From positions 1 to 51,782 of the IMG/VR virus record IMGVR_UViG_3300030385_001835: DNA of 51,782 nt. The stretch is one strand, 5' to 3'. The notes below the pieces were generated by a model. It saw only the letters and a program-made list of their open reading frames with translations, made no database searches and was not told the origin of the DNA. The position numbers and the translations under genes were made by a program. Positions 3,021 to 51,739 of this stretch are shown here, in pieces; positions within the stretch are counted from its first letter, which is position 1, and each line of letters starts with the position of its first letter. The stretch comes from a virus.

Positions 3021-5894
3021 TTAGATTTCACACTGACCACCTTGACATGCTATTGTATCACCTATTACTGTGTTATCATCTGTTTCCACTATCTTAGTTA
3101 AGTCCACCTTCTTAAGTGCCTTCATAAGTGTTTCATACTTCTCCTTAGTACAGTCTTCAAATGGTGCTTGAATATACTGTCCACCATCATAAGGGAGTAC
3201 TGCTATCCCATTGTAGAAGTCTCTATTAGCCCACATCCAGGCACCTACCTTCTTCCACTCATCAGGCTTTACACTAATGGTGCAAGATACGTTGTGTGTG
3301 TTAGAGCCTGCTATGTGACCATTACGGACCCATTCAGTGCTGAAGTACTTTACACGCTCTAGTAAGTCAAAGACGTCCTCAGTGCGGTATATGGACCTGT
3401 CAGGGGACTTCTGTGGGAGTACTAGTATTACACCAGTAGGTTTAGCTTTGTCCTGTTCTATCATAGCAGGGTTATGCTCCATAAGGTACTGTGCAATAGG
3501 TTCTGACTTCTCAAACCTCATTCTACGTAAGTAGTACTTAGCATGTCTACCGTGAATACCAGATGCAGTGCCACATACTAGTGAAGTGGTACCTTCTGGC
3601 TTAATGCAAGTAGTACGTGCAGCAGGGTTAATCCCTATGAGTTTAGCTGTCTCAGTATTACGCTTAACTACTGCTTCTGCTACTGCTGGCCAATCATACT
3701 TCTTATAGTTATTACCATCTGCTATACCTGTTACACTAACACCTAGTAGAGCCTCTTCCTCACAGTTAGTCTGCCATTCATCACCTAAGTAGTGAAAGTC
3801 CGTGAAACCAGCTTGTAGAGTGCCTAGGAAGCTTGCTGTCTTAGCTCTAGCTATAAGGTCTGCTTGAGAGGTTACAGTGCTAAAGTTAATGGTAGTAAGG
3901 TTACAGAACTGCTTATCCTTTAGTGCAATCTCACAGTTATGAACAACAACACCTTCAACTACACCCCAATGGTTATCATTCCGTATATTGAAATCATAAA
4001 CAACTTCACCTCCTGATAGCTCGGTCACACTCAACACTTTTGGTGATTTTGAAGCTATTAATTCATCCAAAGCATCTCTCTTATACTGATGTACAAAAGA
4101 TATGCACTGTGCAAACTTAACGACAGAATCTAATCTTGTTATGTTGACATCATAACTTTCTTTACAAGTGTACGTTCCATTTGGGAACTTAACTTCTTTA
4201 GACTTGTTTGTAGTTATATAATTGTCTATAGAAGATACACTAAGCCAATTGCTTAATTGTTGAGCTAATCTACGACAAGTAGTTTTATAAGCTACTCTAT
4301 GGTTTTTAATTACAGAGCCATTTGCAGAATACATCCCACACAAAAACCCAAGTATGTCATCAGGTATAGTCTCAGGCATTTCTCTTTCGGGAAGTACTTT
4401 CGATTGAAGGTTATATTTTTTTGCTATCTCCATTGCTTCGAGACTGTAGTATGCTCTCTTGCCTTCTTCATAAGGTATGTCAAATAAATCAGCAATCTCT
4501 TTATCATTTTCCCCTATGTTTATTTCTAGACCTCTATGAGACTTACTATTCATTCTAGTGAGAACAGCATCCCCTTGTAAGAACCCTGCTTTTGTAGCTT
4601 CAGAAATCTCTTTATTCATTGTATAAGGGACTTTTAATCTATGACCTTCCAGCTCTATTGCGTGACAACTTAAACCATTAGCGGTCATAAATATGTGATC
4701 AGGTGTGCAGGTTATTGTTTTTTTGTTTGATAATCTAACCTTAACGGTTTCTTTAACTCCTGTTTTCCATACCTCACCTCTATAAACTTCGCCATCTATA
4801 CCTACAAGGTCACATTCACCTTCAAGCTCATCAAACCGCTTGTAACCATCTCTGGTAAGCAAATTGTTCTCACCCGTGAAACAACAAGGATTAGTCCCTA
4901 CGTCTGGGTCATTAGTCCAGTAGATACCAGGTTCACCAGTGCCAGAGTTCTCTACGAACTTCCAGAAGTCATTGTACTGCTCTTTGGTAGTCTTAGGTGC
5001 ATAGTCAATTTCATCTGCAGCCATACCCACTTGATCCATCCAGTTTGAATAACCCTCACGCATAGCCACTGCACTCACATTCACTCTAGCACGATGTGGG
5101 TTAGTATCCCAGTAGGCACCTGCCTTGTACCCTAGCATACCCTCATCTGTCATATCAAACAAGCATATCATAGCTGCTCTACGGATACCACCACTGTATA
5201 CTGCATCTGCTATGAAACAACACAAGTCTGATACTTCACATGAACTAAGTCTCTGACCTACTTCCTTACCATCTAGTACACCTTGCATACGGGATAGTGA
5301 AGTGCGAAGAGGTTCGGGACCAGGCGCCTTACCACCTGCTGTAATAAGTGGCATACCCTTCTCTCTAATGTCTGAGAAGTCAAACTTAGGTTTATAAGTG
5401 CCTTTGAGATAGTGATTCATTAGCACCTTAATAGCATCAGCCCAACCTTCAATTGTATCTGACACTAGGAACTTACGTACAGCCTTCTTACCTGCCTTCA
5501 TGAGAGGTTCCTGTATAGGAGGGAGCTGGTCTATATGTCGGTGCTGAACACTGTATCCTACACCACTCCCTCCCAGGAGGAGAAACATTGTATTAGAGAA
5601 GAACTCTATATCCTTAGCACTGTGATATGCACAGTTATATACTCTGCTATGATTACGCTCTACTGGTACTCCAGCGAACTGAGCCATACGCATTGAACCT
5701 AGCACCTTAAGTTGACGCTCAAACTTCATAGCCTTGGTAATCTTATCAGCTAAGTCAGGGTACTTCTTAATGAGACAGTCTTCTTTACGGTCACATATCT
5801 CATCCCATGTTTCTCTACGGTCTAAGTCTTTGCGGTGTTTAGCATACTTTGTGTTGATTGTAATGTCCGATGCTATCTTGTTTGATAATTCCAC
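3021..5894 (-). CDS. nrdJ: Class II adenosylcobalamin-dependent ribonucleoside-triphosphate reductase, intein-split
   Basis: A 957-residue precursor. Removing the 316-residue intein leaves about 641 residues, somewhat shorter than the roughly 740 of the monomeric Lactobacillus RTPR it resembles. The enzyme reduces NTPs to dNTPs using a cobalamin-generated thiyl radical. Visible active-site features are the thiyl cysteine C337 in the NPC motif and a redox pair, C88 (RVYNCAY) and C664 (QFCNL). After splicing, C337 and the QFCNL cysteine are 11 residues apart, matching C408/C419 of the Lactobacillus enzyme. The C-terminal shuttle cysteines are C950 and C955 (CQGGQCEI). A class II enzyme works without oxygen but needs B12 from the host. 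It overlaps the upstream gene by one base (TAATG) in the early operon. Confidence 0.93.
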   Translation of the reverse strand: MELSNKIASDITINTKYAKHRKDLDRRETWDEICDRKEDCLIKKYPDLADKITKAMKFERQLKVLGSMRMAQFAGVPVERNHSRVYNCAYHSAKDIEFFSNTMFLLLGGSGVGYSVQHRHIDQLPPIQEPLMKAGKKAVRKFLVSDTIEGWADAIKVLMNHYLKGTYKPKFDFSDIREKGMPLITAGGKAPGPEPLRTSLSRMQGVLDGKEVGQRLSSCEVSDLCCFIADAVYSGGIRRAAMICLFDMTDEGMLGYKAGAYWDTNPHRARVNVSAVAMREGYSNWMDQVGMAADEIDYAPKTTKEQYNDFWKFVENSGTGEPGIYWTNDPDVGTNPCCFTGENNLLTRDGYKRFDELEGECDLVGIDGEVYRGEVWKTGVKETVKVRLSNKKTITCTPDHIFMTANGLSCHAIELEGHRLKVPYTMNKEISEATKAGFLQGDAVLTRMNSKSHRGLEINIGENDKEIADLFDIPYEEGKRAYYSLEAMEIAKKYNLQSKVLPEREMPETIPDDILGFLCGMYSANGSVIKNHRVAYKTTCRRLAQQLSNWLSVSSIDNYITTNKSKEVKFPNGTYTCKESYDVNITRLDSVVKFAQCISFVHQYKRDALDELIASKSPKVLSVTELSGGEVVYDFNIRNDNHWGVVEGVVVHNCEIALKDKQFCNLTTINFSTVTSQADLIARAKTASFLGTLQAGFTDFHYLGDEWQTNCEEEALLGVSVTGIADGNNYKKYDWPAVAEAVVKRNTETAKLIGINPAARTTCIKPEGTTSLVCGTASGIHGRHAKYYLRRMRFEKSEPIAQYLMEHNPAMIEQDKAKPTGVILVLPQKSPDRSIYRTEDVFDLLERVKYFSTEWVRNGHIAGSNTHNVSCTISVKPDEWKKVGAWMWANRDFYNGIAVLPYDGGQYIQAPFEDCTKEKYETLMKALKKVDLTKIVETDDNTVIGDTIACQGGQCEI
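3936..4883 (-). other. Intein inside the ribonucleotide reductase
   Basis: Codons 338-653 of the reductase. The N-terminal splice block begins with C338 (CFTGENNLLTRDGY). Block B is TCTPDHIF with the conserved Thr-x-x-His around residue 400. The C-terminal blocks are VYDFNIRNDNHWG and VVVHN, with H652 and N653 followed by C654 as the +1 nucleophile. Joining the flanks restores GTNPC-CEIALK, the expected reductase sequence. Two LAGLIDADG-like helices (GFLQGDAV, about 437-444; GFLCGMYSANGSV, about 516-528) indicate a homing endonuclease domain. The second motif has Asn525 where an Asp is usual, so endonuclease activity may be lost. Splicing residues look intact. Confidence 0.93.
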
Positions 5895-6106
5895 TATAAT
5901 ACTCCTATTTTAGTAATTTCACTTTCTAGAAACCACCAGTTTAAATCCTCTGTAGTGTCAGGGTGATATCTGCACACTCCTACACTTGTAAACACAAATT
6001 CCCTTGTTACATATGACATTCTAACAACACCTAATGCACCAGCCTCTATGGACACTAAGCCTCTCTTGTCAGAGGCGTTTATAACAACTACGTCACCTGG
6101 TTCCAT
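5894..6106 (-). CDS. Small beta-barrel-like protein, paralogue family member 1
   Basis: A 70-residue protein starting MEPGDVVVIN, with a central GALGVVRM turn and ending EITKIGVL. The same three landmarks occur in the neighbour at 6106-6342 and in the plus-strand gene at 35853-36059. The pattern (hydrophobic strand, glycine turn, hydrophobic strand) suggests an SH3/KOW-like barrel; this is inferred from the sequence pattern only. Start and stop overlap neighbouring genes by one base, so it is translated together with the reductase. The function is unknown. Confidence 0.65.
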   Translation of the reverse strand: MEPGDVVVINASDKRGLVSIEAGALGVVRMSYVTREFVFTSVGVCRYHPDTTEDLNWWFLESEITKIGVL

Positions 6107-6342
6107 TATAGCTCACCTATCTTAGTAATACAGTCTTCATGATACTTTACAAAGAACTGATAATCTATAGAGTCATTAAAACCGTGAGTAACCAAGACTA
6201 CATCTGGGTCATAAGGGCCATCCTTTTGTTCAACGACACCTAACACTCCAAAAGCATTATACTGTGTTGCTTCGAATAACCAATCTTGCTCACTGTTCGT
6301 AACAACTACCACATCTCCAGCTTTCAGTTTATTGTATCCCAT
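6106..6342 (-). CDS. Small beta-barrel-like protein, paralogue family member 2
   Basis: A 78-residue protein with KAGDVVVVTNS near the N-terminus, FGVLGVVEQ in the middle and CITKIGEL at the end. It is a clear paralogue of the 5894-6106 product. The start lies 14 bases inside the 3' end of the regulator gene. Its function is not known; a small nucleic-acid- or protein-binding barrel is possible. It lies second in the early operon. Confidence 0.65.
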   Translation of the reverse strand: MGYNKLKAGDVVVVTNSEQDWLFEATQYNAFGVLGVVEQKDGPYDPDVVLVTHGFNDSIDYQFFVKYHEDCITKIGEL

Positions 6343-7021
6343 ATTTTCTCTCCATATTTAATCGTTTCTTAATCTTCTTAATATATCGTCTAACCCTATC
6401 CTGTACACCTTGCTTGGACACCCCGTTATTTCTAGGGAGACTTCCAATAGCCTGAAATGTCATACGCTCAACAAAGTAGTCCCACAAGTCCTTATAGACG
6501 TCTGAGTCCTTGTCAGGAGCCAGTGTAGCCATTAACTCCTTTACGTGTGTCATTTCCTCTTCTGCATGAAGAGGGTAGTTAGGGTCTGCTATGTCCTCTG
6601 GTACGTCCACAGGGAAGGTTAGTTCATAACCCTTGAACACCTTAGTCTTGTTAGAACCCTTGAAAGCAATCTTAATAGCATGGGTGAGAGGTTGATTCTC
6701 TAGCTTGTTATCCCTTGCTTCCTTCATTAAGTGCTTGTTGAATATGGTACTTAGGCTGATACGAGCTTTAAAGTCCTTTACAGACTGCTCTGCTCTACGT
6801 TCAGCTCTAGCCACTATCTTATCCACTTCAAGGAACATCTCTTCTATAGCGAATATAGCGTCACTGTCTACCTCTTCTGGTAATAAGAACCGTTTAAAGT
6901 GTGTCTTCTTAAAGCCTATGTCTTTGTCGAACTTCGCTAAGTACTCCAAAAACAATGCTTGTTTCTCTTTTTTGCTACCTCTAAGGAAGCTCTGGGTGTC
7001 TTGTAAGTCATTTTCATTCAT
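6329..7021 (-). CDS. Sigma-region-4-like DNA-binding regulator
   Basis: A 230-residue charged, mostly helical protein. The C-terminus (about residues 188-222; FQAIGSLPRNNGVSKQGVQDR followed by a basic helix) resembles the helix-turn-helix of sigma factor region 4, including the GVSKQ-V recognition-helix pattern. No sigma region 2 is visible, so a repressor or activator is as likely as a sigma factor. It is the first gene of the early minus-strand operon. The -10 box ends 6 bases upstream of the ATG, so the mRNA probably begins at or next to the start codon and lacks a ribosome binding site. Confidence 0.65.
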   Translation of the reverse strand: MNENDLQDTQSFLRGSKKEKQALFLEYLAKFDKDIGFKKTHFKRFLLPEEVDSDAIFAIEEMFLEVDKIVARAERRAEQSVKDFKARISLSTIFNKHLMKEARDNKLENQPLTHAIKIAFKGSNKTKVFKGYELTFPVDVPEDIADPNYPLHAEEEMTHVKELMATLAPDKDSDVYKDLWDYFVERMTFQAIGSLPRNNGVSKQGVQDRVRRYIKKIKKRLNMERKYGIQ

Positions 7022-7027
7022 AATATG

Positions 7028-7056
7028 AGTGTACTACCAATTTAACCAAATGTCAA
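7028..7056 (-). promoter_or_regulatory. Early promoter, minus strand (leaderless)
   Basis: On the minus strand, TTGACA (7051-7056), a 17-base spacer and TACACT (7028-7033). The ATG of the regulator gene starts at 7021, where transcription would begin. It is divergent from the late promoter at 7136. Confidence 0.75.
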
Positions 7057-7135
7057 GTCTAATCGTAACTAAACACCTTTTTTGAGTTATTTGAGTCTAG
7101 ATAAGAGGTATTTCATAAAATAAGTACTTTTTCTC

Positions 7136-7164
7136 TTGACTTTGGTGTTTTAATTGTATATGAT
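7136..7164 (+). promoter_or_regulatory. Late-region promoter, plus strand
   Basis: TTGACT (7136-7141), a 17-base spacer and TATGAT (7159-7164). Transcription would start near 7171 and run through a leader of about 390 bases before the first gene. Confidence 0.7.
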
Positions 7165-7216
7165 TAGTATGGAGAACGTTTGGTATGGTAGAAGGTATAC
7201 GTAACTAAATTACTAT

Positions 7217-7463
7217 CCGCAGCTTGAAGAATCTCAAACGGGGGCTGCGATATCAAAACAACCTAAGAGTGCGGAGAGTAGACTTGCTTCGCTTAAACCA
7301 AAGTGGCGAACTGCCCCTAATTGATGGGGGTTCCGAAGTATGGGTGACTCGTACGGGCTTCGGAGGGATTATCAATCAAAAGCGATGAACTCAGCATGAC
7401 GATAATCATGTTAAGATCTCCAGACAGCAAAACTTACAAATATTTTTTTTGTAGATTTTGCTG
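7217..7463 (+). ncRNA. Candidate structured RNA in the late leader
   Basis: This stretch is gene-free and contains consecutive stem-loops that are GC-rich for this genome. They are CGCAGC/GCTGCG (7218-7223 with 7244-7249), GCGGAG/CTTCGC (7271-7276 with 7287-7292), GAAC plus CCCC with GGGG plus GTTC (7308-7317 with 7326-7333), CCGAAG/CTTCGG (7333-7338 with 7358-7363) and GATTATC/GATAATC (7367-7373 with 7401-7407). A long hairpin, CAGCAAAA...TTTTGCTG with an inner 7-bp extension, spans 7425-7463. It does not match any riboswitch, tmRNA, RNase P or intron consensus I know. It could be a regulatory leader, a packaging signal or an independent small RNA. Confidence 0.5.
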
Positions 7464-7512
7464 GGGAGCTATACTCTGAATCTAACAATCAAATAATCTA
7501 TTAAAAGTATAA

Positions 7513-7537
7513 GGTACTAGAGTATAATACTAGTACA
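7513..7537 (+). promoter_or_regulatory. Inverted repeat around a TATAAT box
   Basis: GTACTAG (7514-7520) and CTAGTAC (7530-7536) form a 7-bp inverted repeat with a 9-base loop. The loop contains TATAAT (7523-7528). No good -35 lies 16-18 bases upstream, so this may be an operator, an RNA hairpin just before the first late gene, or a weak second promoter. Confidence 0.35.
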
Positions 7538-7557
7538 TAATACTACAGGCATTGAAT

Positions 7558-7827
7558 ATGACATACACTAAAGCAGAATACGACAATCTAAAGAATCATG
7601 GAGTAGAAGCTCAAGATGATTACTTAGTAGGAGTACAGATTAACACTAATCAAGTGTTGAACAGCATATTAGCATTACTGGAGAAGAATGATAGAACAGC
7701 TAAGATACTACCTGCTAGCGTTAAGAGTAACCTTGACAAACCTAGCGCACCAGCACGAACTGGTGCAAAGACCGTGGCAAGTACACCTAGAGGGTCTAGG
7801 AAGAAGTCTAAGGGTACAGCGAGATGA
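7558..7827 (+). CDS. Hypothetical basic-tailed protein before terminase
   Basis: An 89-residue protein. The first 55 residues are predicted helical. The C-terminal third is a low-complexity Pro/Ala/Ser/Lys/Arg tail (SAPARTGAKTV, RGSRKKSKG) that looks disordered and nucleic-acid binding. The frame is open from a TTG two codons earlier, but the ATG at 7558 is preferred. It overlaps the next gene by 4 bases (ATGA). Its place directly before terminase fits a packaging accessory role, which is inference. Confidence 0.6.
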   Translation: MTYTKAEYDNLKNHGVEAQDDYLVGVQINTNQVLNSILALLEKNDRTAKILPASVKSNLDKPSAPARTGAKTVASTPRGSRKKSKGTAR

Positions 7828-8609
7828 ACGAAGACGAAATATTAGATAGTATCCCTATAGTCACAGACTCAAGGGGTAAGTACACTAATGCCAGTGCAGA
7901 TACTACAGCTAACAATGGGTCTAGGGGTAAGCTTAACAGTGACCAGCTAGATGAACGTGCAATACTACATGCTAAGCGTGTAGGTGCAGGATACCCTAGT
8001 TATAAAGAGATTGTAGAGCATTGGTATAAGGCTTACAACATTACTATGGCACTCTCATCAGAGTATGAGTGGGCAGAGAATAACAATGACCGTATAGACC
8101 GTGAGATAGCTCGGTTAGAAGAGAACGGTGACATGCCTATAGTGGCAGTGTCAAATAGTCAGATTACGGGTATGCTTGCTAAGAGTGCAAGAACCATTAC
8201 TGACACTCTAAGGACTAATAAGCTTGCTCAGTCAGACTTAGTACAATGTGCTAGGTTAATGGCTGACCCGTATAAAGCGATAGGTGCTACAGGTGCAGAA
8301 GCATATTATACTTGTAGTGATGAGCAAAGAGAGATATTTGATAAACGCTTAGACCATTTAATTAAGTTAAATGACTCTAGGACAGCTTCATTGAACGCTA
8401 TATCTAAGTCTACTTCAGACCAAGGTAAAGTGCTCACAGACCTAATGAAGGTGGTAGTGGAACTTAATAAGTCTGGTCAGAATGTCGATAAGATGATTGC
8501 TAAGAAAGCAAAAGAACAACTTAAAGAGGCAGGACTTAAATTACAGGAAACGGAAGCACTAAAAGAGGTAGACCCTCTTGCTCCAGTATCAGATGAAGAA
8601 AGACTCTAA
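7824..8609 (+). CDS. Putative terminase small subunit
   Basis: A 261-residue, largely helical, charged protein directly upstream of the large terminase gene. Residues about 60-90 (YPSYKEIVEHWYKAYNI) could form the N-terminal DNA-binding region. The centre (about 150-230) is helix-rich, and the lysine/glutamate-rich C-terminus (about 225-250, IAKKAKEQLKEAG) could form a coiled coil. No signature motif is visible, so the assignment rests on size and gene order. It overlaps the large subunit by 17 bases. Confidence 0.5.
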   Translation: MNEDEILDSIPIVTDSRGKYTNASADTTANNGSRGKLNSDQLDERAILHAKRVGAGYPSYKEIVEHWYKAYNITMALSSEYEWAENNNDRIDREIARLEENGDMPIVAVSNSQITGMLAKSARTITDTLRTNKLAQSDLVQCARLMADPYKAIGATGAEAYYTCSDEQREIFDKRLDHLIKLNDSRTASLNAISKSTSDQGKVLTDLMKVVVELNKSGQNVDKMIAKKAKEQLKEAGLKLQETEALKEVDPLAPVSDEERL

Positions 8610-10206
8610 AGAACTTGAAGCCCTCATGCGAAGGGATCTATACACTTGGATGACTAGCAGGTCGCTATTACCTAATGGCAAGCCTTATTCATTTAAGGGT
8701 CATGAGTATATGGAGCAGATAGCTAAACATACTTGGGTTCCTGGTGATCATGTTTACATAATGAAGTCATCTCAGTGTGGTGCAAGTGAATACGCTATTA
8801 ACTGGATGCTATGGATGCAAGAGCGTAATCTACCTGATTGGCAGGGGATTGGTTACTTGTTTCCAGCTACAGAGCAATTAAGAGATCATATCAAAGCTAG
8901 GGTTCAACCAATAATGGAGTTCCCTAGGTTTGCTAAGTTTCTTAAGAGTAATAATCTAAGGTTCTTTAGATATAATAATAGACCTATTTACTTTAGAGCT
9001 GCACAGACTAGAAGGGATTTAATCTCATGGTCTGCTGATGCTGCTGTAATGGATGAGTTTGATGAGTTTGGAGACCCTATTGCTGCAGTAGATACTGTAT
9101 CAGCTAGGTTTAATCATAGTAAGTATAAGTGGATATTAGGATTAAGTACTCCTACATATCCTGATATTGGTATAGACGCTGCTTTTAGTACTTCTATACA
9201 GCACCATTGGTTCATAGAGTGCAGTGAGTGTAAGGATAAGTTTTCCCCTCTTCAAGAGGTGATGACAAGTAACTTTGAGAGTTGTGTAATACGAGGTGAG
9301 GATGGTAAAGCAGGTTTTCTGTGTCCTCATTGTGGTGAACTTACACAGACTAATGGTGCTCCTGGTGAATGGAGAGTCACTAATGAAGGTAAGGGTAAGA
9401 AGCAACGATATGCTTATGCTATAAGTCAGTTATTCGTAAGTCATGCTAACCTTGATGCCTTAATAGATAAATATGAAGATGCTCACAACATGCAAGAGTT
9501 TTATAACTCAAACCTTGGTATCCCCTATAGTCCAGCTAACGCTAAGATTTCTAGAGGGGATCTTGTGGATTGCGCTATTGGTGATACTAATAATCACCTT
9601 GGCAGTAAAGAGTCTACTATTGCAGGAATAGATGTCGGTAAGAAGTGCCATTACATTATAGCTAATCAAGACAATGAGGTTAAAGACCTTAATGTGATAG
9701 CTTATGGCACATGTACGTTTGATGACCTACCAGAGCTTCTGAGGAAGTTTAGTGTAGATACCCTAGTAATTGACTTACGACCTGAAGAACAGTCCGTAAA
9801 GAAGCTTATAAGGGGACACAGGAGGTGGTTTGCAAGTGATTATAACACTAGTAATGCTATTGACTGGTATGACTTTACGAGGGCCGATACTGGTGGGAAA
9901 GGCGGTTCTATTAGAGTGGTGAAGAACCACAGAACGCAAACGTGTGACGCTTTGATTGAAGCAGTCTCAGTGCGGAAGAGATTTATCTTTCCCCAGCAGA
10001 TTAAACAAGACAACCAGTTCTTAAAGCAAATGTGTGCTTTACAGAGGATGGAAAAGAAAGAGAACGATACTGGAGAGATTAGAGCATACTATGGTAATGG
10101 TGGAAAGGCTGACCATTACTTTCATGCTGCAGCTTATTTATTCTTAGCTTCTCTAGTAAAACGTACAGCAGGATTTGCAAGGCCAGGGCCACAATTTCAC
10201 GGATAA
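8593..10206 (+). CDS. terL: Terminase large subunit, GpA-type
   Basis: A 537-residue packaging ATPase/nuclease. The ATPase half contains KSSQCGASE (the GpA-type Walker A, which also lacks the usual GK in lambda), then AAVMDEFDEF as Walker B. Paired cysteines (CSECKDKF and CPHCGEL, about residues 207-256) form the zinc-finger-like insert typical of this family. The nuclease half shows IAGIDVGKK, LVIDLRPEE and KADHYFHAAAY, supplying the metal-binding acidic residues. Translation is taken from ATG 8593; an in-frame TTG at 8578 is less likely. It converts ATP hydrolysis into DNA translocation into the prohead and cuts the concatemer. Confidence 0.9.
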   Translation: MKKDSKELEALMRRDLYTWMTSRSLLPNGKPYSFKGHEYMEQIAKHTWVPGDHVYIMKSSQCGASEYAINWMLWMQERNLPDWQGIGYLFPATEQLRDHIKARVQPIMEFPRFAKFLKSNNLRFFRYNNRPIYFRAAQTRRDLISWSADAAVMDEFDEFGDPIAAVDTVSARFNHSKYKWILGLSTPTYPDIGIDAAFSTSIQHHWFIECSECKDKFSPLQEVMTSNFESCVIRGEDGKAGFLCPHCGELTQTNGAPGEWRVTNEGKGKKQRYAYAISQLFVSHANLDALIDKYEDAHNMQEFYNSNLGIPYSPANAKISRGDLVDCAIGDTNNHLGSKESTIAGIDVGKKCHYIIANQDNEVKDLNVIAYGTCTFDDLPELLRKFSVDTLVIDLRPEEQSVKKLIRGHRRWFASDYNTSNAIDWYDFTRADTGGKGGSIRVVKNHRTQTCDALIEAVSVRKRFIFPQQIKQDNQFLKQMCALQRMEKKENDTGEIRAYYGNGGKADHYFHAAAYLFLASLVKRTAGFARPGPQFHG

Positions 10207-13711: not shown

Positions 13712-14344
13712 ATGAGTAAAAGCAAGAAACTTCCCATTACGCTATGTGTTATAACCCACAATTCTGAAGACAGGATTAAGGATATGCTATTAAAACACAA
13801 GGATATAGTGGATGAAACCATTGTTGTTGTACAGAAAAGCACAGACAATACCCTTGACAGAGCCAGAGAAACTGGAGCTGTGGTTGTTGAGCGGAGATGT
13901 AAAGGAACATCTGACCCAGATAGAGACTGGTTATTCGCCTTGGCAAGGAATGAATGGGTATTATACTTGGATGATGATGAGTATATCAGCACAGTCCTTG
14001 AAGGAAAGTTAGAAGCACTTATAGAAGAAAACGTAGATATTTATTGGTTAAAGAGAACTAACCTAGTGGATGGAGTGGATATACACCCTATCTTGGGCAA
14101 TGATATGCAAGCTAGACTGTTCCGTAAAGGGGCTTTAACCTACCCTGATGCGATACACACGTATCCTAAGCCTAGAAGAGAGGCTAAAGTAGCTTTTGTG
14201 GACTATGATATAGTACATGACCGTAATTTTGAAGACTTAAAGAAAAGCAATCGTGGTAGAAACGTAATTGCTGATAGAGACCAGATAGGAATGCAAGAGC
14301 AGTTTATAGCTAAAGTAGATAACTATTTGGAGTCTCAGAGATAA
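13712..14344 (+). CDS. Family 2 glycosyltransferase
   Basis: A 210-residue GT-A fold enzyme. LPITLCVITHNSEDRI at the N-terminus is the nucleotide-sugar entry strand, and YLDDDEYIS (about residues 87-95) is the metal-binding DXD motif. HDRNFEDLKKSNRGRN near the C-terminus matches the acceptor-side region of SunS-like family 2 enzymes. It transfers a sugar from a nucleotide donor; substrate unknown. It is the first gene of a five-enzyme cassette and has an AAGGA ribosome binding site. The ATG of the next gene overlaps its TAA. At about 210 residues it is compact, with no membrane segment, so it is cytosolic. Confidence 0.85.
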   Translation: MSKSKKLPITLCVITHNSEDRIKDMLLKHKDIVDETIVVVQKSTDNTLDRARETGAVVVERRCKGTSDPDRDWLFALARNEWVLYLDDDEYISTVLEGKLEALIEENVDIYWLKRTNLVDGVDIHPILGNDMQARLFRKGALTYPDAIHTYPKPRREAKVAFVDYDIVHDRNFEDLKKSNRGRNVIADRDQIGMQEQFIAKVDNYLESQR

Positions 14345-15252
14345 TGGAAGTATTAATCAACAATGCACATGAAGAAGGTTCTGGTGGCGGTGGCTATTGG
14401 GCTTCACAGATTACTAAGGCTATAACAGAGTTTGCCTCTGTAGACCTTATGCGACCTCCTTCTGCACTTAGGCGTGAGAATAACCCTGAGTTATCATGCA
14501 AAACAAGCATGTTTAGCCCAGATAAGCAATACGACTATTTTCTTGATATAAATCATTTCCAGTCTACTACTCAAGCTAATGCTAAAAAGAACATTAAAGT
14601 AGTATATTTTCCTAATTCAATGCAGACCAATAAGGGGTTTGATGAGTTAGTAACGCTTTCTGATTATAGTGCCAAGTACATAAAAGAGTACTGGTACAAG
14701 GATTCCAAGGTTATTGCACCTTATTCTAAGAACCTTACACCTAGCAAGAAAGAAGAGAGGTCTATCTGTGTTGTGGGTAATATGTTTTATGAAGCTGATG
14801 GTCACTGTAAGAACCAACACGTTTTGCTTGATTGCTTAAGAGAGTTAGGTAAAGGGTGGAAAATGTACGTTATAGGCAACGTAGTCAATGAGGCTTATTA
14901 TAAGCACCTTGTACAGATGTCTACTGATTTAGAAGTTAGTTTCTTCCCTGGTTGCACAGATGAGGTGAAAGAGGCTATTATACGTAAGAGTAAATTCTTT
15001 TGGCATGCTAATGGTTATGGTAGAATTAGACCAGACCAAACAGAGCATTTCGGTATTGCACCAGAAGAAGGTTTGAAGGCAGGGTGTTTAACATACGTTC
15101 ATGCCTCAGGTGGAGCGCAGGACTTCTGTACTTCATGGAAAGACCCTCAAGACCTTATAGAGTTAACTAAGAGTGAAGCACCTAATCCTGATAAACCTAA
15201 CTTCTCTAGTCATAATAAGGCTGTAGAGTTCTGGAAAGGAGTGTTAGCATGA
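14344..15252 (+). CDS. GT4-like glycosyltransferase
   Basis: A 302-residue GT-B fold enzyme. The N-terminal glycine-rich EEGSGGGGYWASQIT loop is followed by a Rossmann-type second half containing SICVVGNMFYEAD and MYVIGNV. EHFGIAPEEGLKAGCLTYV (about residues 237-255) is the E-x7-E donor-binding motif of GT4 enzymes. It is soluble and without a signal peptide. The gene overlaps its upstream neighbour by 1 base and the methyltransferase by 4 bases, so the cassette is translationally coupled. Donor and acceptor cannot be read from the sequence. Confidence 0.8.
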   Translation: MEVLINNAHEEGSGGGGYWASQITKAITEFASVDLMRPPSALRRENNPELSCKTSMFSPDKQYDYFLDINHFQSTTQANAKKNIKVVYFPNSMQTNKGFDELVTLSDYSAKYIKEYWYKDSKVIAPYSKNLTPSKKEERSICVVGNMFYEADGHCKNQHVLLDCLRELGKGWKMYVIGNVVNEAYYKHLVQMSTDLEVSFFPGCTDEVKEAIIRKSKFFWHANGYGRIRPDQTEHFGIAPEEGLKAGCLTYVHASGGAQDFCTSWKDPQDLIELTKSEAPNPDKPNFSSHNKAVEFWKGVLA

Positions 15253-15692
15253 AACTACACTTAGGTTGTGGTAATGACTATAAAGAGGGTTTTTGGAACG
15301 TAGATATCGGTGACTGTAAGAAGGACCAAGAGATGGATATAAGCCGTCCTTTTCCATTACAGGATAACAGTTACACTTACGTATACGCAAAGCACGTACT
15401 AGAGCATATCCCAAGGGAGAGCTTCTTTGATGTGTTTAGAGAAATTCATAGGGTTATGGCACATGGAGCTGTTCTAGAGTTCTGTGTACCGCATGCAGGT
15501 AGTGATAACTACTGGACAGACCCTACTCACACTATGCCCTATACAGTCCGTACAATGGACTTCCTAATAGAGGGTAAGCAATTACGTGAGAATGGTAAGA
15601 TTTACGGTGCAGAGTACTCTTTTGAAGAAGTAGAGGCACCAAAGGTGGATGGAGTTTACACTGTATATTTTAAGCTCCGTAAGGTTAAATAG
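15249..15692 (+). CDS. SAM-dependent methyltransferase, class I
   Basis: A 147-residue short methyltransferase. MKLHLGCGNDYKEGFWNVDI (residues 1-20) contains the SAM-binding GCG loop and the acidic end of strand 2. YVYAKHVLEHIPRE (about 47-60) is motif IV of the Methyltransf_11 type, and REIHRVMAHGAVLEFCVPH follows as in that family. Given its place between glycosyltransferases, O-methylation of a sugar is the likely role, which is inference. It overlaps the previous gene by 4 bases. Confidence 0.8.
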   Translation: MKLHLGCGNDYKEGFWNVDIGDCKKDQEMDISRPFPLQDNSYTYVYAKHVLEHIPRESFFDVFREIHRVMAHGAVLEFCVPHAGSDNYWTDPTHTMPYTVRTMDFLIEGKQLRENGKIYGAEYSFEEVEAPKVDGVYTVYFKLRKVK

Positions 15693-15702
15693 GAATTATT
15701 AT

Positions 15703-15834
15703 ATGAAATGCGCACACTGTCAAAAAGTCCACAATCACCGCTATGAGTGTGATGAAATCAAGTCCTTACGTAAGTTCGTAGGTGACGATAGCTATCAAGC
15801 TAAACTAGTTAGCAAGAAAAAGAGAAGGAATTAG
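15703..15834 (+). CDS. Small zinc-binding-type peptide
   Basis: A 43-residue peptide with CAHCQKVHNHRYEC at the N-terminus (C-x2-C ... H-x-H ... C) and a basic tail (VSKKKRRN). The ATG at 15703 follows AGGAATTATT. It is unlike the enzymes around it, and its function is unknown; a nucleic-acid or adaptor role is possible. Confidence 0.55.
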   Translation: MKCAHCQKVHNHRYECDEIKSLRKFVGDDSYQAKLVSKKKRRN

Positions 15835-15838
15835 AATT

Positions 15839-16981
15839 ATGAAGAAATACCTCTTAACACGTTTTGGTGGAATGGGTGATGCTGCACCAATTATGGTAGT
15901 AGCTAAACAGCTTAAGAAGCTGGGTCACAGTGTTGATATAGCACTTAGAGAAGATGACCATGGTAATAAACAAATAGACTTCCTAGAGAACACTGACTGT
16001 GAAGAGGGTTCAATGACCTTCAAAGAGATTGGTCCTTGGAAGACTAGATGTGTAAAATTTCAGCATGGATGGGTAGATATTCAGAGTATATACCATAATT
16101 ACGATGAAGTGATTGACTTTATGAATATCATAGAGCAGAATAGCACTTGTATCAGTTCCTTTGCAGTTAACCCTACAGATGAGTGGATGAAGCATAGAAA
16201 CAGTAATTGGGTCAATTGGTATGATTTACACTTAGCATGGGCTAATATAGACCCTACTAGTGTACCTGATGAAGAGAAGAGACCTGAGTTCGTATTGTCT
16301 GATAATGAGCTTAAAGAGGTCGCTAAGATTAAAGAGGGGTCTGATGGCGTAATAGTCATCAACCCACACGCTAGTTCATTAGCACGTACCTGGTATCAAG
16401 CAGATGATATGATACCTTTACTGCTTAAAAAGTACCATAACCATAGGATATACTCGTGGCAGGCCGATACAGCCTCATACAGGGTTTATAGTGGGTCAGG
16501 GTTCCATGAGCACCAGTCAACCCTTAAAAGCTCTCTACGGGCCTCTATGTGCGTTGTAGCGAGTGCTGACATCTATATAGGTGCTGACACTGGGTATACA
16601 CACGTAGCAGAAGGCCTTCAGATACCCCATATAGCCGTTTACAGCTCTGTTCCAGCTTGGACTAGAGCTAAGTACTATAAGTACCAAACAGCCGTAGATA
16701 AGGGTCCATACAGCTTTGCTTTGACACTAGGTGATCCACATCGTATTGAAGAAGGCATGGAAGACTTATCTAAGAAGGAAAAGAGACTAATGGAGATTCA
16801 TGAGTCAGGTGCCACTATAGAAGTAGCTGCCAAAGAGATGAATACTACTCCAGAAGGGATAAACTTAGAAATGGACGCTTTACAGAGAAAGGTATCATCC
16901 TTTGAACGTATACAGTCTAAAGCATTAACAGCCGTAACAGTAGAAGAAGTTATGGGTCTGATTGAAGGGGTATTGGCATGA
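15839..16981 (+). CDS. Glycosyltransferase family 9 (heptosyltransferase-like)
   Basis: A 380-residue GT-B enzyme. The N-terminus YLLTRFGGMGDAAPIM is the typical start of LPS heptosyltransferase-like proteins. The C-terminal domain contains INPHASSLARTW and ADIYIGADTGYTHVAEGL (about residues 242-259), the D-TG-x-H donor-binding motif of family 9. The last about 70 residues (AAKEMNTTPEGINLEMDALQ) form extra helices, possibly a helix-turn-helix-like add-on. Family 9 enzymes usually add heptose or related sugars to LPS core, so the host envelope or a virion glycan could be the acceptor. It overlaps the next gene by 4 bases. Confidence 0.8.
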   Translation: MKKYLLTRFGGMGDAAPIMVVAKQLKKLGHSVDIALREDDHGNKQIDFLENTDCEEGSMTFKEIGPWKTRCVKFQHGWVDIQSIYHNYDEVIDFMNIIEQNSTCISSFAVNPTDEWMKHRNSNWVNWYDLHLAWANIDPTSVPDEEKRPEFVLSDNELKEVAKIKEGSDGVIVINPHASSLARTWYQADDMIPLLLKKYHNHRIYSWQADTASYRVYSGSGFHEHQSTLKSSLRASMCVVASADIYIGADTGYTHVAEGLQIPHIAVYSSVPAWTRAKYYKYQTAVDKGPYSFALTLGDPHRIEEGMEDLSKKEKRLMEIHESGATIEVAAKEMNTTPEGINLEMDALQRKVSSFERIQSKALTAVTVEEVMGLIEGVLA

Positions 16982-17685
16982 GAGTAGGATTTATAATTCC
17001 AGCATACAAGAACCCTAAACAACTAGAAAAGTGTTTAAGAGCTATAGATAATCAAGAGACAAAACACCAGTATGACATCTTTGTACATGATAATGATGAG
17101 AACAATATTGGGTTCACTAAGGCTATTAACTTAGGTCTTAAGAAGTTTGTTGACTATGACTATACTGTTGCACTTAATCAAGATTGCTATATCGAACCTA
17201 GCTTTGTTAATAAACTAGTTAAGTTCATGGAAGCTCACCCTAAGTGTTTTATTTCGGGTGTTAAGCAACTTTCCATTGAAGATACTGATTATATAGTACA
17301 CGGTGGTTGTACTCAAGCTTACCCTAATGGTAGGCATATAGGTGGGCGTAAGTCCCAGAACTCTTGCTCAGTAAGTAAGAAGATGCCTTGGATAAATGGT
17401 GCCTGTATGATAGTGAATATGTCCCTCTTACCAGTAGTAGGTAATATGGATGAGAACTACTTCCTTGTAGGTAGTGACTCCGATTGGTGCTATACAGCCA
17501 ATATGAAGAATACAGAAGTATGGTATTGTGCAGACATTGAAGTAATACATGAAATGGGTGTCTCAGCTAGTAATGAGCCTGGACCCATGGATGTGTATAA
17601 GATGCTTGATATGGTGTATTTCAGAGATAAGTGGGTTAATGATGGATTGTTTAGGGAAATCTCACAGGAAGTTCATGTTTCATGA
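16978..17685 (+). CDS. Family 2 glycosyltransferase (rhamnosyltransferase-like)
   Basis: A 235-residue GT-A enzyme. VGFIIPAYKNPKQLEKCLRA opens the nucleotide-binding domain. NNIGFTKAINLGL (about residues 43-55) is the NxG-x2-x-x-N motif of rhamnosyltransferase-like GT2 proteins, LNQDCYIEP supplies the D-x-D-like metal site, and the acceptor helix region contains YFLVGSDSDWCYTA. It is the last enzyme of the cassette. The acceptor is unknown. Confidence 0.82.
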   Translation: MRVGFIIPAYKNPKQLEKCLRAIDNQETKHQYDIFVHDNDENNIGFTKAINLGLKKFVDYDYTVALNQDCYIEPSFVNKLVKFMEAHPKCFISGVKQLSIEDTDYIVHGGCTQAYPNGRHIGGRKSQNSCSVSKKMPWINGACMIVNMSLLPVVGNMDENYFLVGSDSDWCYTANMKNTEVWYCADIEVIHEMGVSASNEPGPMDVYKMLDMVYFRDKWVNDGLFREISQEVHVS

Positions 17686-35166: not shown

Positions 35167-35189
35167 CCTCAATCTTCTCAAACTAAATT

Positions 35190-35220
35190 GGACTCTTCTT
35201 CGGAAGGGTCTTTTTTTTGT
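35190..35220 (+). terminator. Terminator at end of structural operon
   Basis: An 8-bp stem GACTCTTC/GAAGGGTC around a TTCG tetraloop (35191-35210), followed by eight T and then a second T-rich run. Confidence 0.95.
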
Positions 35221-35237
35221 CTTTTTTTTTAAAGTAC

Positions 35238-35287: not shown

Positions 35288-35521
35288 ATGAAATACTTAA
35301 TACTAATTACACTAATTATAACAGCATGTAGTAACACTACGGAACCTACTGTATGCAATGAGTATGAGTCTGTTTACATAGTCACCACTAATGTAGATGG
35401 TGTTTTGGAGCATGAACCTTACTCTAACTCAGCAGAGTGCGTAAGAGCATCAGAATCATATAAGAACGAAGGCGTTAGTTCTTCGTGTCAAAGAATAGTA
35501 GACAACACAGGATGTAACTAA
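35288..35521 (+). CDS. Small lipoprotein
   Basis: A 77-residue protein with a short signal peptide (YLILITLIITAC) whose lipobox predicts acylation at C14. The mature part has four further cysteines (near residues 23, 50, 66 and 76) that could form disulphides in the periplasm. Phage lipoproteins of this size often block superinfection at the outer membrane or act as outer spanins; neither can be decided here. It has its own promoter and an AAGGAG site. Confidence 0.75.
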   Translation: MKYLILITLIITACSNTTEPTVCNEYESVYIVTTNVDGVLEHEPYSNSAECVRASESYKNEGVSSSCQRIVDNTGCN

Positions 35522-44719: not shown

Positions 44720-45649
44720 TCAATGTCCTTTAAATAATCTAGCTGCTTCCTTCTTACCTAGTTGTTCGTAAATCATAGTTGTCTTAATATCCTTATGCCC
44801 TAATTGCTTCTGAGCTACAGTTACTCCGTACCTAGGGTCATGTATAATATTAGTAGCACACCCTCTACGTAGGTCATACTGCTGTTTATCAGGTAGTCCA
44901 ATCTTCTTAAGTGTTCTCTTAAACAGTTCGTGAGATGATGTAGGATGGAGTTTATTCCCTCTAGCAGTAACCCATAGTGTATCAGAGACTACAGCAGTTC
45001 GACTTGCTCTGTGTTGCATAGCGAAGTTAATATAGTGTGCTATCTCATCAGTAACGAACAAGTAGCGTGATACCTTACCAGCTTCTCTTGCTTTAGAACC
45101 TTTAATAGCAATCAATCTATCCTTACCATTGTCATCCATTACTATATCAGATACTTTAAGGTCCATCATTTCTTGAGGTCTCATGCCAGTAGCGAATAAG
45201 AATAGCATTATATTACACATGAGCACTTCAGACTCTATAAGTTTACAGTACTTGCTGTTCATATAGTCTTTAATAGCTAGTGTATCATCAAGTGTAAAGG
45301 GGTTGGACTCTGCTGCTTCATGTCTCAGCTTAGGCATGTAGAGTGCAGGATTAGAGTCATAAGCTACACCAAAACTCCTAGTACCCCAAGAGTATAGTCT
45401 TTTGATATGCTCTTTAAGACCGTTAACTTTAGCGTTACTTGCTCCCTCTACTTTCATCTTAGCATACCAGGCGTGTGATACAGTGGTAGCAGTTACAGGG
45501 TCAGAGGTGTATGTTAGAACAGGGTTCATCATTTCTAACAGTGTGTGTGATAGTCTAGTGTACTTGGTTATTGAAGCAGGTGATAGAGTAATCACTGATG
45601 GGCTACTGAGGTAGGCTTGTACTAGTTCTCTGAATGTGGTTGGTTTCAT
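44720..45649 (-). CDS. int: Tyrosine site-specific recombinase (integrase)
   Basis: A 309-residue recombinase. The N-terminal SAM-like domain (residues about 1-115) binds core/arm DNA. The catalytic domain shows ATGMRPQEMMDLKVSDI with Arg I, a Lys-containing beta-hairpin (IKGSKAREAGK), box II YDLRRGCATNI, LGHKDIKTTMIYEQL with the second His, and the Tyr nucleophile. Box II has Tyr in place of the usual first His of H-x-x-R, a tolerated but less common variant. It would integrate the phage at a host att site. The attP position is not certain; the tRNA-like element at 38599 is one candidate but lies 6 kb away. Confidence 0.92.
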   Translation of the reverse strand: MKPTTFRELVQAYLSSPSVITLSPASITKYTRLSHTLLEMMNPVLTYTSDPVTATTVSHAWYAKMKVEGASNAKVNGLKEHIKRLYSWGTRSFGVAYDSNPALYMPKLRHEAAESNPFTLDDTLAIKDYMNSKYCKLIESEVLMCNIMLFLFATGMRPQEMMDLKVSDIVMDDNGKDRLIAIKGSKAREAGKVSRYLFVTDEIAHYINFAMQHRASRTAVVSDTLWVTARGNKLHPTSSHELFKRTLKKIGLPDKQQYDLRRGCATNIIHDPRYGVTVAQKQLGHKDIKTTMIYEQLGKKEAARLFKGH

Positions 45650-45673
45650 GTGTTATCTCCTTGTTCTATTTAC

Positions 45674-45702
45674 ATAGTACTACAGTATGAATAGAATGTC
45701 AA
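45674..45702 (-). promoter_or_regulatory. Integrase promoter, minus strand
   Basis: On the minus strand, TTGACA (45697-45702), a 17-base spacer and TACTAT (45674-45679), 25 bases before the integrase ATG. No terminator is visible between the integrase and the lysis-type genes, so these may share this transcript. Confidence 0.8.
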
Positions 45703-45935
45703 GAGAATGTTATATTTAATTGCCACTACACAAATTTTCTTAGGACTACGCATTTGGGCATACCCTACACAAAACTGGCATATGTTTGAAGACTACGAGT
45801 GAATCGCATACGTTTCAAAAACCTAAAACCCTCTCATACGCACACACAGCCCAATACAGCCATTATCTCATTTAGGGTGCTCTGACTACTATAAACGGTG
45901 AAAGTCTCTATAAACGCTTATATAACCTATTTAAG

Positions 45936-46226
45936 CTAACCCTCGTACTTGCAGCCAAAGAACCGCTCGCTATTAGCCACAAACTCTCTACCTGACATCT
46001 GAGGGTAGGACCAACGGTGAGTATACCCATCTTTGCATATGGTAATGGTATTGCATATATAGCTTACGTGTCCCATTTGCCCCTCGCTAATGAACACACA
46101 CGTAGGTTCTACCCAGTACGGGTACTTACGCCCTGTGTGTGATACGCCTAGGTACGTACGTATACGTGTAGGAAGGTATTTACAAAAAGTGGCCAAAAAT
46201 CTAGGGAAAAGCTTTCTATTAGACAT
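45936..46226 (-). CDS. Hypothetical protein near Fur-like operator
   Basis: A 96-residue basic protein with several aromatic residues and four cysteines (near residues 15, 43, 57 and 64, plus one near the end). I do not recognise it. The ATG has an AGGAG site 8 bases upstream. The upstream 80 bases carry palindromes, including a Fur-box-like site, so expression may respond to a repressor. No partner gene is adjacent; the integrase lies downstream after a 286-base gap. Confidence 0.5.
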   Translation of the reverse strand: MSNRKLFPRFLATFCKYLPTRIRTYLGVSHTGRKYPYWVEPTCVFISEGQMGHVSYICNTITICKDGYTHRWSYPQMSGREFVANSERFFGCKYEG

Positions 46227-46257
46227 GGTTTATGCTCCTGGTAAAGTGGTCAACAGA

Positions 46258-46305
46258 GATATTGAGACTGAATCGCAATCTCTACTGAGAATGATTCTCA
46301 ATATC
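46258..46305 (-). promoter_or_regulatory. Operator cluster with Fur-box-like palindrome
   Basis: TGAGAATGATTCTCA (46286-46300) is a perfect 7-1-7 palindrome that differs from the Fur 7-1-7 consensus TGATAATNATTATCA only by a symmetric change. It sits inside a larger inverted repeat GATATTGAGA (46258-46267) / TCTCAATATC (46296-46305). A TATAAT in minus-strand sense is at 46323-46328 without a clear -35. Confidence 0.5.
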
Positions 46306-46612
46306 ATATTGGGATATCCGATATTATACTAATGCTCTCAAACGCACAGAGAGGGGTATTAAAGCCATTCAATATAATAGACGTATTATATAGGTTTATC
46401 TGGTAGAGTGCTTTAAACGTCCTTATCATGAGGATACTATACCATAGAAATAGATTGATTGCCATAACTATTTTAAATAAGTGATATTAGTTATTAGGTG
46501 ATATTAAGCCATTGTAGGGGGTTTGGGGGTATATGCTGCCAGAGCATAGGGTATAGGCTAAAGGCTCTTAAATAAGCTCTAAGGAGTGTCTGTGGGAAGC
46601 TACACTTTAGGG
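46306..46612. other. Gene-free stretch
   Basis: About 300 bases with no credible gene on either strand. It contains ACGCACAGAGAG (46342-46353), which also occurs near 50049, and a GT/AT-rich segment. It may hold regulatory or attachment sequences; nothing further can be named. Confidence 0.5.
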
Positions 46613-46640
46613 CACAAAAAAACCCTAAGTTAATAGGGCT
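46613..46640 (-). terminator. Terminator, minus strand
   Basis: In minus-strand sense, CCCTA-loop-TAGGG (46623-46638) followed by a run of seven T (46615-46622 on the other strand). It ends the 49394-46665 transcription unit. Confidence 0.85.
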
Positions 46641-46664
46641 AAAGAGTAGTTTAAAGGGTTTGTT

Positions 46665-49327: not shown

Positions 49328-49365
49328 AATAAATCCTTGTTAGTAAGTAACTCACCTACCCCACT

Positions 49366-49394
49366 AACTTAGTGCCATAATTGTAATTTGTCAA
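49366..49394 (-). promoter_or_regulatory. Promoter of the right minus-strand unit
   Basis: On the minus strand, TTGACA (49389-49394), a 17-base spacer and TAAGTT (49366-49371), 39 bases before the ATG at 49327. Confidence 0.75.
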
Positions 49395-50107
49395 ATGATT
49401 TTATCACTTATTTTATATTTATTTTAAAGTGCCTAATTATACGTTTTATTAGGTGCCTTATACAGTGCCTACTATAGCGCCTTATTAGGTGCCTAGTATA
49501 GCGTATAGTAGTATATAGGGTATAGTGTATTATAGGGTGTATTATAGTGTATTACTGTATATAGGGGTATACTGTGAGTAGTGGTATATTAGGTATATAG
49601 GGTACTAGTAGTATATGGTAGTATATAGTGTAGTATGTAGTAGTATATAGTAGTGGTGGAGAGTGGTGTGTGTGTGGTGGTACCTAATCTCCCACATTGG
49701 GGGTGTAGTAGGTAGTGGTGTATGGTTGTGTGATAGTTGATTGTTTTGTGTGAATACATCCTATTAGACTCATATTTCAATACATGGTATAAAACAGGCT
49801 TATTTAGGGGTATTTTAGGATATTCTATAGATATATATAGGGAATTGTATATTCTATTCATATATATATGTACAATACAGTCCATATAGAGCATATATAA
49901 GAATATATGAGAGAATTTAAATATATTATGAAGGGGTGGGGCTGGGGTATTCTGGTAAATCCAGTCATAGGGCTATCAACTCGTATATCCACACCTGAAT
50001 ACTACACTATACCAATACGACCTACCCTATGGCACTAGATTACCCTGAGACGCACAGAGAGAGGCATACAGGCGCTTACTAAGGTGCCTAGTCCATAGCT
50101 TAGGGTA
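49395..50107. other. AT-rich low-complexity gap, possible origin region
   Basis: About 710 bases without a credible gene. 49430-49500 repeats GTGCCT/AGGTGCC with TATAGCG-type linkers. 49500-49680 is built from TAGTATATAG-like words with strong T/A/G strand bias. 49760-49930 is A/T-rich with many ATATAT steps. Such iterated, easily melted DNA between two transcription units is a reasonable place for a replication origin or packaging site. No DnaA box cluster was recognised. Confidence 0.4.
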
Positions 50108-50134
50108 TAAAAAAAGAGCCTGTATAAGGCTCTG
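50108..50134 (-). terminator. Terminator of the early operon, minus strand
   Basis: In minus-strand sense, AGAGCC-TTATACA-GGCTCT (50115-50133) followed by T7. If the map is circular, this ends the operon that starts at 7056. Confidence 0.9.
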
Positions 50135-50160
50135 TGTGAAGATTAATGGAGAGTGGGGAT

Positions 50161-50974: not shown

Positions 50975-51154
50975 TTAGTTATCCTTTGGTTCGGTTGGTG
51001 GTTGTAGGAGGTTGTTAATCTTCTTTGATAACGAGTTTATTACACAATTTCTCGTTTCTAATTTCAACTTCAAGGCTTTGTTCTCTGCTTGTAGGTGTGC
51101 TATTTTTCCTTTAGCTTCGCCTAATAAATTGTAGTAATAGTCTACTGATTTCAT
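50975..51154 (-). CDS. Small coiled-coil protein with LQAENKALK module
   Basis: A 59-residue coiled-coil protein (AKGKIAHLQAENKALKLKLE), the complete counterpart of the truncated gene at 1-88. It ends in PPTEPKDN, whose codons carry an AAAGGA site before the next gene. The start overlaps the end of the 51151-51462 gene by 4 bases. The function is unknown. Confidence 0.6.
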   Translation of the reverse strand: MKSVDYYYNLLGEAKGKIAHLQAENKALKLKLETRNCVINSLSKKINNLLQPPTEPKDN

Positions 51155-51181
51155 CGTATATCCTTTGGTTCGGTTGGTGTT
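51067..51181. repeat. Terminal direct repeat, right copy 1
   Basis: Partner of 1-115. After this repeat the two copies diverge: the left one continues into the 76-435 gene, which is absent on the right. Confidence 0.95.
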
Positions 51182-51462
51182 TGTAGGTCGAGTAGGAGTT
51201 TTATTGGTTTTAATATTTCTAAACCTTTATCGTTTTTCAGTACCCATGCTTTATAAATTCCCCTCATCTTAAACCATCTCAAACAACTGTACAGATTCTC
51301 CTTCAAGGCTTTGTTCTCTTCATATACCCTTGTATTATCCCTAACAGCATCGTTTGCAACTTCCTTCAAGGCTTTGTTCTCTGCTTGTAGAGCTTCAACG
51401 TCTGATACCAAATAAAACACCCCATGTTCAGATTTATCATAAAAACCGTTATATCTTTGCAT
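51151..51462 (-). CDS. Coiled-coil protein, mosaic paralogue of the 435-746 gene
   Basis: A 103-residue protein. The N-terminal third (MQRYNGFYDKSEHGVFYLVS) is unique. The middle carries two LQAENKALKE-type modules (near residues 25 and 49). The last about 50 residues (NLYSCLRWFKMRGIYKAWVL, then LEILKP) nearly equal those of the 435-746 product. The gene looks assembled by exchange of modules. The ribosome binding site for the next gene lies in its PTEPKDI tail. The function is unknown. Confidence 0.65.
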   Translation of the reverse strand: MQRYNGFYDKSEHGVFYLVSDVEALQAENKALKEVANDAVRDNTRVYEENKALKENLYSCLRWFKMRGIYKAWVLKNDKGLEILKPIKLLLDLQTPTEPKDIR

Positions 51463-51465
51463 TTA

Positions 51466-51609
51466 TCATCTCTCCCTTAGATTGTTAAGTATCCCAGTAA
51501 CACATTTAGGGCAAGTGTTGGAATTGAATGGCTTAAACCTCGCTACTCTGTAGTATTTTCCACAAGCATTGCACAGTATATCTATAAAGTTTAAATCAGA
51601 GTTATCCAT
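51466..51609 (-). CDS. Small zinc-ribbon peptide, 47 aa
   Basis: A 47-residue peptide with CNACG and CPKC motifs spaced as in a zinc ribbon. I chose ATG 51609, one base after the previous stop with GGAGGGGGA upstream, rather than the longer frame from 51693, which overlaps the upstream gene. The start context is identical to that of the 435-746 gene. The function is unknown. Confidence 0.6.
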   Translation of the reverse strand: MDNSDLNFIDILCNACGKYYRVARFKPFNSNTCPKCVTGILNNLRER

Positions 51610-51610
51610 T

Positions 51611-51739
51611 CTATTCCCCCTCCAATGTTTTAATTTCCACTTTATATTCGTAATAGTGTTTATCACATTGTACGCATCCATACACACAAGCAATAAAGGC
51701 TATTAGTCGGAATAAATCTCTGTAAACTAATTGGTTCAT
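51611..51739 (-). CDS. Small membrane-type peptide, 42 aa
   Basis: A 42-residue peptide: MNQLVYRDLFRLIAFIACVYGCVQC contains one hydrophobic helix, followed by a charged tail ending IKTLEGE. Its first four and last seven residues equal those of the 748-1125 product while the rest is different, so it occupies the same slot in the alternative junction. The function is unknown. Confidence 0.5.
   Translation of the reverse strand: MNQLVYRDLFRLIAFIACVYGCVQCDKHYYEYKVEIKTLEGE

Follow-up and report, generated by a model that had tools for sequence, protein, structure and literature searches.

A candidate structured RNA on the minus strand of a divergent control region in an isolated phage genome

Between the leftward and rightward gene blocks of the virus record IMGVR_UViG_3300030385_001835 lies a stretch (7171-7500) whose minus strand folds more stably than shuffled sequence and into a well-defined structure. 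We tentatively favour the reading that it encodes a lineage-specific structured RNA, transcribed leftward, which would act as a leader or as a processed RNA, both in cis and as an antisense. As a structured-RNA candidate it is reasonable but unproven. In the following, we describe its genomic setting, the folding of the two strands, the search for relatives, and the explanations that compete with this proposal. 'The window' refers throughout to the whole stretch of DNA that was analysed (51,782 nucleotides), which is one entire virus record; all coordinates are given on it and those of the main features are collected in Table 1.

Results

A non-coding control region between divergent genes

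The gap at 7022-7557 is real: by ORF lists and codon-usage scoring, it is a non-coding control region of 536 bases. The ORFs inside 7171-7557 (54, 19 and 27 codons) have codon-usage scores of -8.9, +1.4 and -6.2 bits, against +25 for the gene next to the gap, so that none is credible and a protein-coding reading is rejected; the gene-free stretch of about 390 bases reported in the initial annotation is thereby confirmed. Its description of the genome as otherwise packed with genes holds in part, in that the coding fraction is 0.89, but the gap (about 530-536 bases) is merely the fourth-largest, after gaps of 1015, 833 and 539 bases. In the other large gaps, no 330-nt tile folds beyond z -3.3. 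The largest low-coding gap (45650-46664) adjoins an integrase (44720-45649), contains many short palindromes as well as divergent promoter-like sites (45669-45702), and is a candidate attP or regulatory region; its plus-strand tile 46090-46419 has a fold z of -3.3. The 833-base non-coding stretch (49328-50160), upstream of a leftward gene run and possibly an origin or promoter region, has TATAG/GTAGTATA-like low-complexity repeats and a strong G-over-C skew (0.44).

Leftward from 7021 run the genes for a sigma-like protein of 230 aa, for which no PDB match was found, two small proteins and, as the fourth gene, a class II ribonucleotide reductase, whose intein bears a LAGLIDADG homing endonuclease domain. 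Rightward from 7558 follow a small gene, a 261-aa gene in the terS position with no family match, and the genes for the terminase large subunit (TerL), the portal and an SU10-type capsid. Glycosyltransferase- and methyltransferase-like genes (13712-17685) come directly after the capsid gene within the structural operon, which is closed by a clear rightward intrinsic terminator at 35185-35230 (GGACTCTTCTTCGGAAGGGTC, then T-runs); a small lipoprotein-like ORF lies past it, near 35289-35521. Since 39 of the 58 starts (about two thirds) are preceded by a Shine-Dalgarno-like sequence, ordinary bacterial signals apply. The ends of the record overlap imperfectly (1-115 with 51067-51181; 1113-1168 with 51727-51782), and the genome map is therefore probably circular. 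Viewed over 1-1168 and 51067-51782, this overlap comes in patches of 90-100% identity with length differences of ~200 and ~250 bases, which looks like a strain-variant circular genome assembled as linear, or like a small gene family duplicated there.

The gap is enriched in promoters: three of the 31 sigma-70-like sites that match at 10 of 12 positions in the window (both strands) fall within it, where ~0.3 would be expected for a gap of that size. Among them is the rightward promoter at 7136-7164, recognized already in the initial annotation. A second rightward promoter (7501-7528) overlaps an imperfect dyad (7506-7544), which is the sole perfect copy of its kind in the window and possibly an operator or activator site. 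The dyad also overlaps a possible leftward -10 box (7511-7506), which has no matching -35; RNA initiated leftward from this box would begin at about 7499, where helix P1 (described below) has its first base. No intrinsic terminator was found in 6000-9000 on either strand, and thus none of the kind that an attenuator leader carries ahead of its first gene.

Table 1. Features of the control region and its neighbouring genes
Feature	Position	Strand	Evidence
Class II (B12-dependent) ribonucleotide reductase with intein	3021-5894	-	Pfam intein, LAGLIDADG and RNR-II domains
230-aa protein, weak phage sigma-factor family match in C-terminal part	6329-7021	-	phrog_1740, E 7e-4
Non-coding gap between divergent gene blocks	7022-7557		ORF lists, codon-usage scoring
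Leftward promoter TTGACA-17-TACACT, just before sigma-like gene	7028-7056	-	10/12 match
Candidate rightward promoter TTGACT-17-TATGAT	7136-7164	+	10/12 match
Candidate structured RNA, closed multibranch fold, read 7500 to 7171	7171-7500	-	MFE -87.1, z -4.92
P1, 5' side, irregular AU-rich closing helix, pairs with 7173-7198	7471-7499	-	pair probabilities 0.67-0.88
P1, 3' side, pairs with 7471-7499	7173-7198	-	pair probabilities
P2, long AT-rich hairpin (the AT hairpin of the initial annotation)	7418-7468	-	z -6.9 minus, -5.7 plus
P3, hairpin CUUA-A-CAUGAU-UAUC-GUCAUG-C-UGAG	7390-7415	-	pair probability 0.94-0.96
P4, hairpin: 13-bp helix GCUUUUGAUUGAU/AUCAAUUAGGGGC, 6x6 internal loop, 7-bp helix UCCGAAG/CUUCGGA	7313-7383	-	pair probability 0.97-0.98
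P5, small weak hairpin	7297-7307	-	pair probability 0.59
P6, three-way junction	7199-7292	-	inner stems pair probability 0.94-0.98
P6 arms	P6a 7243-7263, P6b 7222-7239	-	pair probabilities
Candidate rightward promoter TTAAAA-16-TATAAT, within dyad	7501-7528	+	10/12 match
Candidate leftward -10 box TATACT, weak	7506-7511	-	read from sequence
Imperfect 39-bp dyad AGTAT-aag-GTACTAG-agtataata-CTAGTAC-ata-ATACT	7506-7544		inverted repeat
First rightward gene, ~90 aa, no family match	7558-7827	+	codon score +25
Terminase large subunit	8578-10206	+	phrog_675, E 7e-82

The well-defined fold lies on the minus strand

The region was initially annotated as a plus-strand RNA on the strength of a series of stems, which are present in the sequence: CGCAGCUU/GGGCUGCG, UUCGCU/GGCGAA, GCCCCUA/UGGGGGU, UCCGAAGU/GCUUCGGA and AGCAUGA/UCAUGUU, together with an AT hairpin at 7425-7463. 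On that strand, however, the core that they form folds no better than chance. In the region of the GC-rich stems (7200-7420), 40 of 200 shuffles fold equally well, and the core at 7199-7415 is likewise no more stable than its shuffles; on this strand only the AT hairpin stands out. The full plus strand is more stable than its shuffles (z -3.5 and -3.2; -2.6 with another 200 shuffles), a signal owed mostly to the AT hairpin (7418-7468), which folds well on either strand. Moreover, the plus-strand fold is rearranged from one energy parameter set to the next, and its ensemble diversity over 7171-7500 is ordinary (57/200 shuffles).

By contrast, the minus strand of 7171-7500 is significantly stable, with a z of -4.92 in a first test. 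A second test gave z -4.27 with none of 200 shuffles as good, and two other parameter sets gave -3.55 and -3.65, so that z ranges from -3.6 to -4.9 with no shuffle as good. Its ensemble diversity lies below that of all 200 shuffles, and most of its stems have a pair probability above 0.9. With most of the AT hairpin excluded (7200-7420), no shuffle in 200 matches the minus strand, compared to the 40 for the plus strand. Set beside 1718 270-nt windows drawn from the two strands, minus-strand 7199-7468 has the lowest ensemble diversity, a rank that is sensitive to position, as a shift of the window by 2 nt raises the diversity from 0.054 to 0.096 and lowers the rank to 18 of 1718.

Broken down by element, P2 is equally good on both strands (0/500 shuffles on either), while 1/500 shuffles are as good as P4 on the minus strand versus 40/500 on the plus strand, and 4/500 versus 311/500 as good as P6; the boundaries of these elements were read off the minus fold, and the counts thus lean to that strand. 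The outer limits of the region (7171-7500), on the other hand, derive from the fold of the plus strand, and the comparison of the full strands is therefore free of any tuning towards minus. The strand contrast persists under Turner 1999 parameters, and the two Turner sets agree. With those of Andronescu 2007, the difference shrinks (full-length z -3.65 minus versus -3.29 plus) and the ensemble diversity is ordinary on both strands; under this set the stems persist, but little remains of the strand preference. All three parameter sets place P2, P3, P4 and P6 in the full-length fold of the minus strand.

Because the minus strand folds better and most of its stems reappear across parameter sets, we take it, with moderate confidence, as the likelier template. 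The proposed link of the RNA to the packaging genes is then probably wrong, and the probable link moves to the operon of the sigma-like protein and the reductase.

Relatives and known RNA classes

Searches of phages, plasmids, E. coli genomes, 179 phage loci and 300 bacterial genomes, collections that may lack the records closest to the window, revealed no relative of the gap sequence; blastn of the stretch against the phages, plasmids and E. coli genomes returned chance matches only. Its exact 16-mers occur in nine viral contigs, in every case in an unrelated context. The neighbouring genes led no further. TerL, capsid and helicase peptide searches of viral contigs gave no close relatives, and a ribonucleotide reductase search gave 28 loci (best 51%), none with the gap sequence. 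Two scans with TerL alignments (80 listed loci each) reached at best 31% identity among the matches listed, and these loci contain no similar stretch and share no long gap upstream of TerL. In genome contigs, a single TerL sequence found no match and a TerL alignment one distant Variovorax locus; the portal matched none of 50,697 phage records. By these protein comparisons, with no TerL relative above 31% identity among the matches listed and no match to the portal, the phage is isolated.

A covariance model built from the single P4-P6 sequence (R1) found only itself in the window, the 179 loci, 30 whole virus records and ~300 genomes; one further match, inside a TerL gene (E 0.42), was attributed to chance. 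Likewise, nothing in the window reaches an Rfam gathering threshold, in agreement with the earlier failure to assign the RNA to a known class. Relaxing the cutoff to E 10 adds only a plant miRNA model and a snoRNA model, both matched by chance at E ~4 and well short of their gathering scores, and brings up no cobalamin riboswitch aptamer core. The GOLLD and ROOL models do not match the ~330-nt candidate, ARAGORN finds no tRNA or tmRNA in the window, and no complementary target of the kind seen with the P4 and P1 antisense RNAs, that is, no match longer than 13 nt, occurs elsewhere in it. The idea of a new phage RNA outside the Rfam classes is still plausible, but the strand to which it was assigned is probably wrong.

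Discussion

The leftward RNA that we tentatively favour would have its 5' end around 7499-7530, beneath the dyad, and would fold into the closed multibranch structure P1 to P6. Given that no terminator follows 7171-7500 on the minus strand, it would probably extend into the sigma-like/ribonucleotide-reductase operon as its long 5' leader, or else be freed by RNase processing. Such a stable element at the 5' end would regulate leftward expression in cis and would also serve as an antisense against whatever RNA is made rightward from the promoter at 7136-7164. Against this proposal stand the leftward -10 box without a -35 partner and the lack of a homologue in the collections searched; furthermore, the highest promoter scores belong to the rightward promoter and to a separate leftward one at 7056, which would bypass the RNA. 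We consider it unlikely that the candidate goes further and represents a new class, namely a ~330-nt phage structured RNA driven from a leftward promoter of its own under control of the dyad, placed between an early (sigma-like, ribonucleotide reductase) and a late (packaging, capsid) block and possibly coordinating both as leader and antisense.

Several phage RNAs bear some likeness to the candidate. The put RNA of HK022, likewise structured and located immediately after a phage promoter, is ~65 nt long and forms two stem-loops; in the candidate, by contrast, the well-folded strand is the opposite one. The CI RNA of P4, the C4 RNA of P1/P7 and the antisense RNA of N15 are short (~70-80 nt) and processed, and resemble it in being antisense to a leader in their own genome, as we propose for the candidate; they have complementary leader targets, whereas the candidate has no match longer than 13 nt elsewhere in the window. 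The antisense leader RNAs of P4, P1 and N15 are named as a group alongside the ORF-less transcripts of ICP1, one example of which, ~300 bp between gp135 and gp136, was seen by RNA-seq (PMC7567579). The latter also derive from a gene-free stretch of a tailed phage, but the candidate is predicted from its sequence, and no similarity to phage records was found. Finally, GOLLD and ROOL are phage-encoded structured non-coding RNAs without a known role; many GOLLD members exceed 800 nt, and such RNAs often lie near tRNA genes (PMC12286853), while the candidate is far shorter, has no Rfam match and lies in a window without tRNAs. GOLLD, ROOL, the ICP1 transcripts and the P1/P4/N15 RNAs are the nearest in kind, and the candidate shows none of their defining features that were tested.

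The main rival explanation, doubtful on balance yet a serious contender, is that the gap serves as regulatory DNA and perhaps also in packaging, with divergent promoters, a dyad operator and possibly a cos or pac site, and that the fold reflects DNA palindromes (P2, the dyad) and chance pairing instead of a functional RNA. In its favour are the three 10/12 promoters as well as P2 and the dyad, which are symmetric on both strands. The gap also adjoins the terminase genes, near which cos or pac sites are often found, the overlapping contig ends fit a circular map, and the GC skew changes sign near 7200, though the direction of transcription flips there as well. What it leaves unexplained is that P4 and P6 are significant on the minus strand only, and a search for a TerS-type repeat array found none.

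The original model, in which a 387-nt structured leader transcribed rightward from 7136-7164 controls the late packaging operon by attenuation, antitermination or translation, now appears quite improbable. Its promoter is good and in the right place, the leader would be long and gene-free, and the full plus fold does reach z -3.2 to -3.5; but the plus core is chance-like (40/200 shuffles at 7200-7420), the ensemble is diffuse and its folds vary with the parameter set, attenuation would lack a terminator, and the second rightward promoter (7501-7528) could bypass the leader. Lastly, a divergent or unrecognised riboswitch for cobalamin or another metabolite, to which the structured stretch ahead of a B12-dependent reductase operon on the same strand might point, is very improbable, as Rfam has no riboswitch match even at E 10, there is no terminator switch, and the reductase is only fourth in the run, with a nearer promoter at 7056-7028.

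What looks by eye like a set of stems on one strand can in fact form in the RNA copied from the opposite strand, and strand-specific folding statistics alter which operon an RNA would serve. If the minus-strand RNA is real, it would be an orphan structured RNA at a divergent control point and a possible link between early and late transcription, in a phage lineage for which public collections contain almost no relatives.
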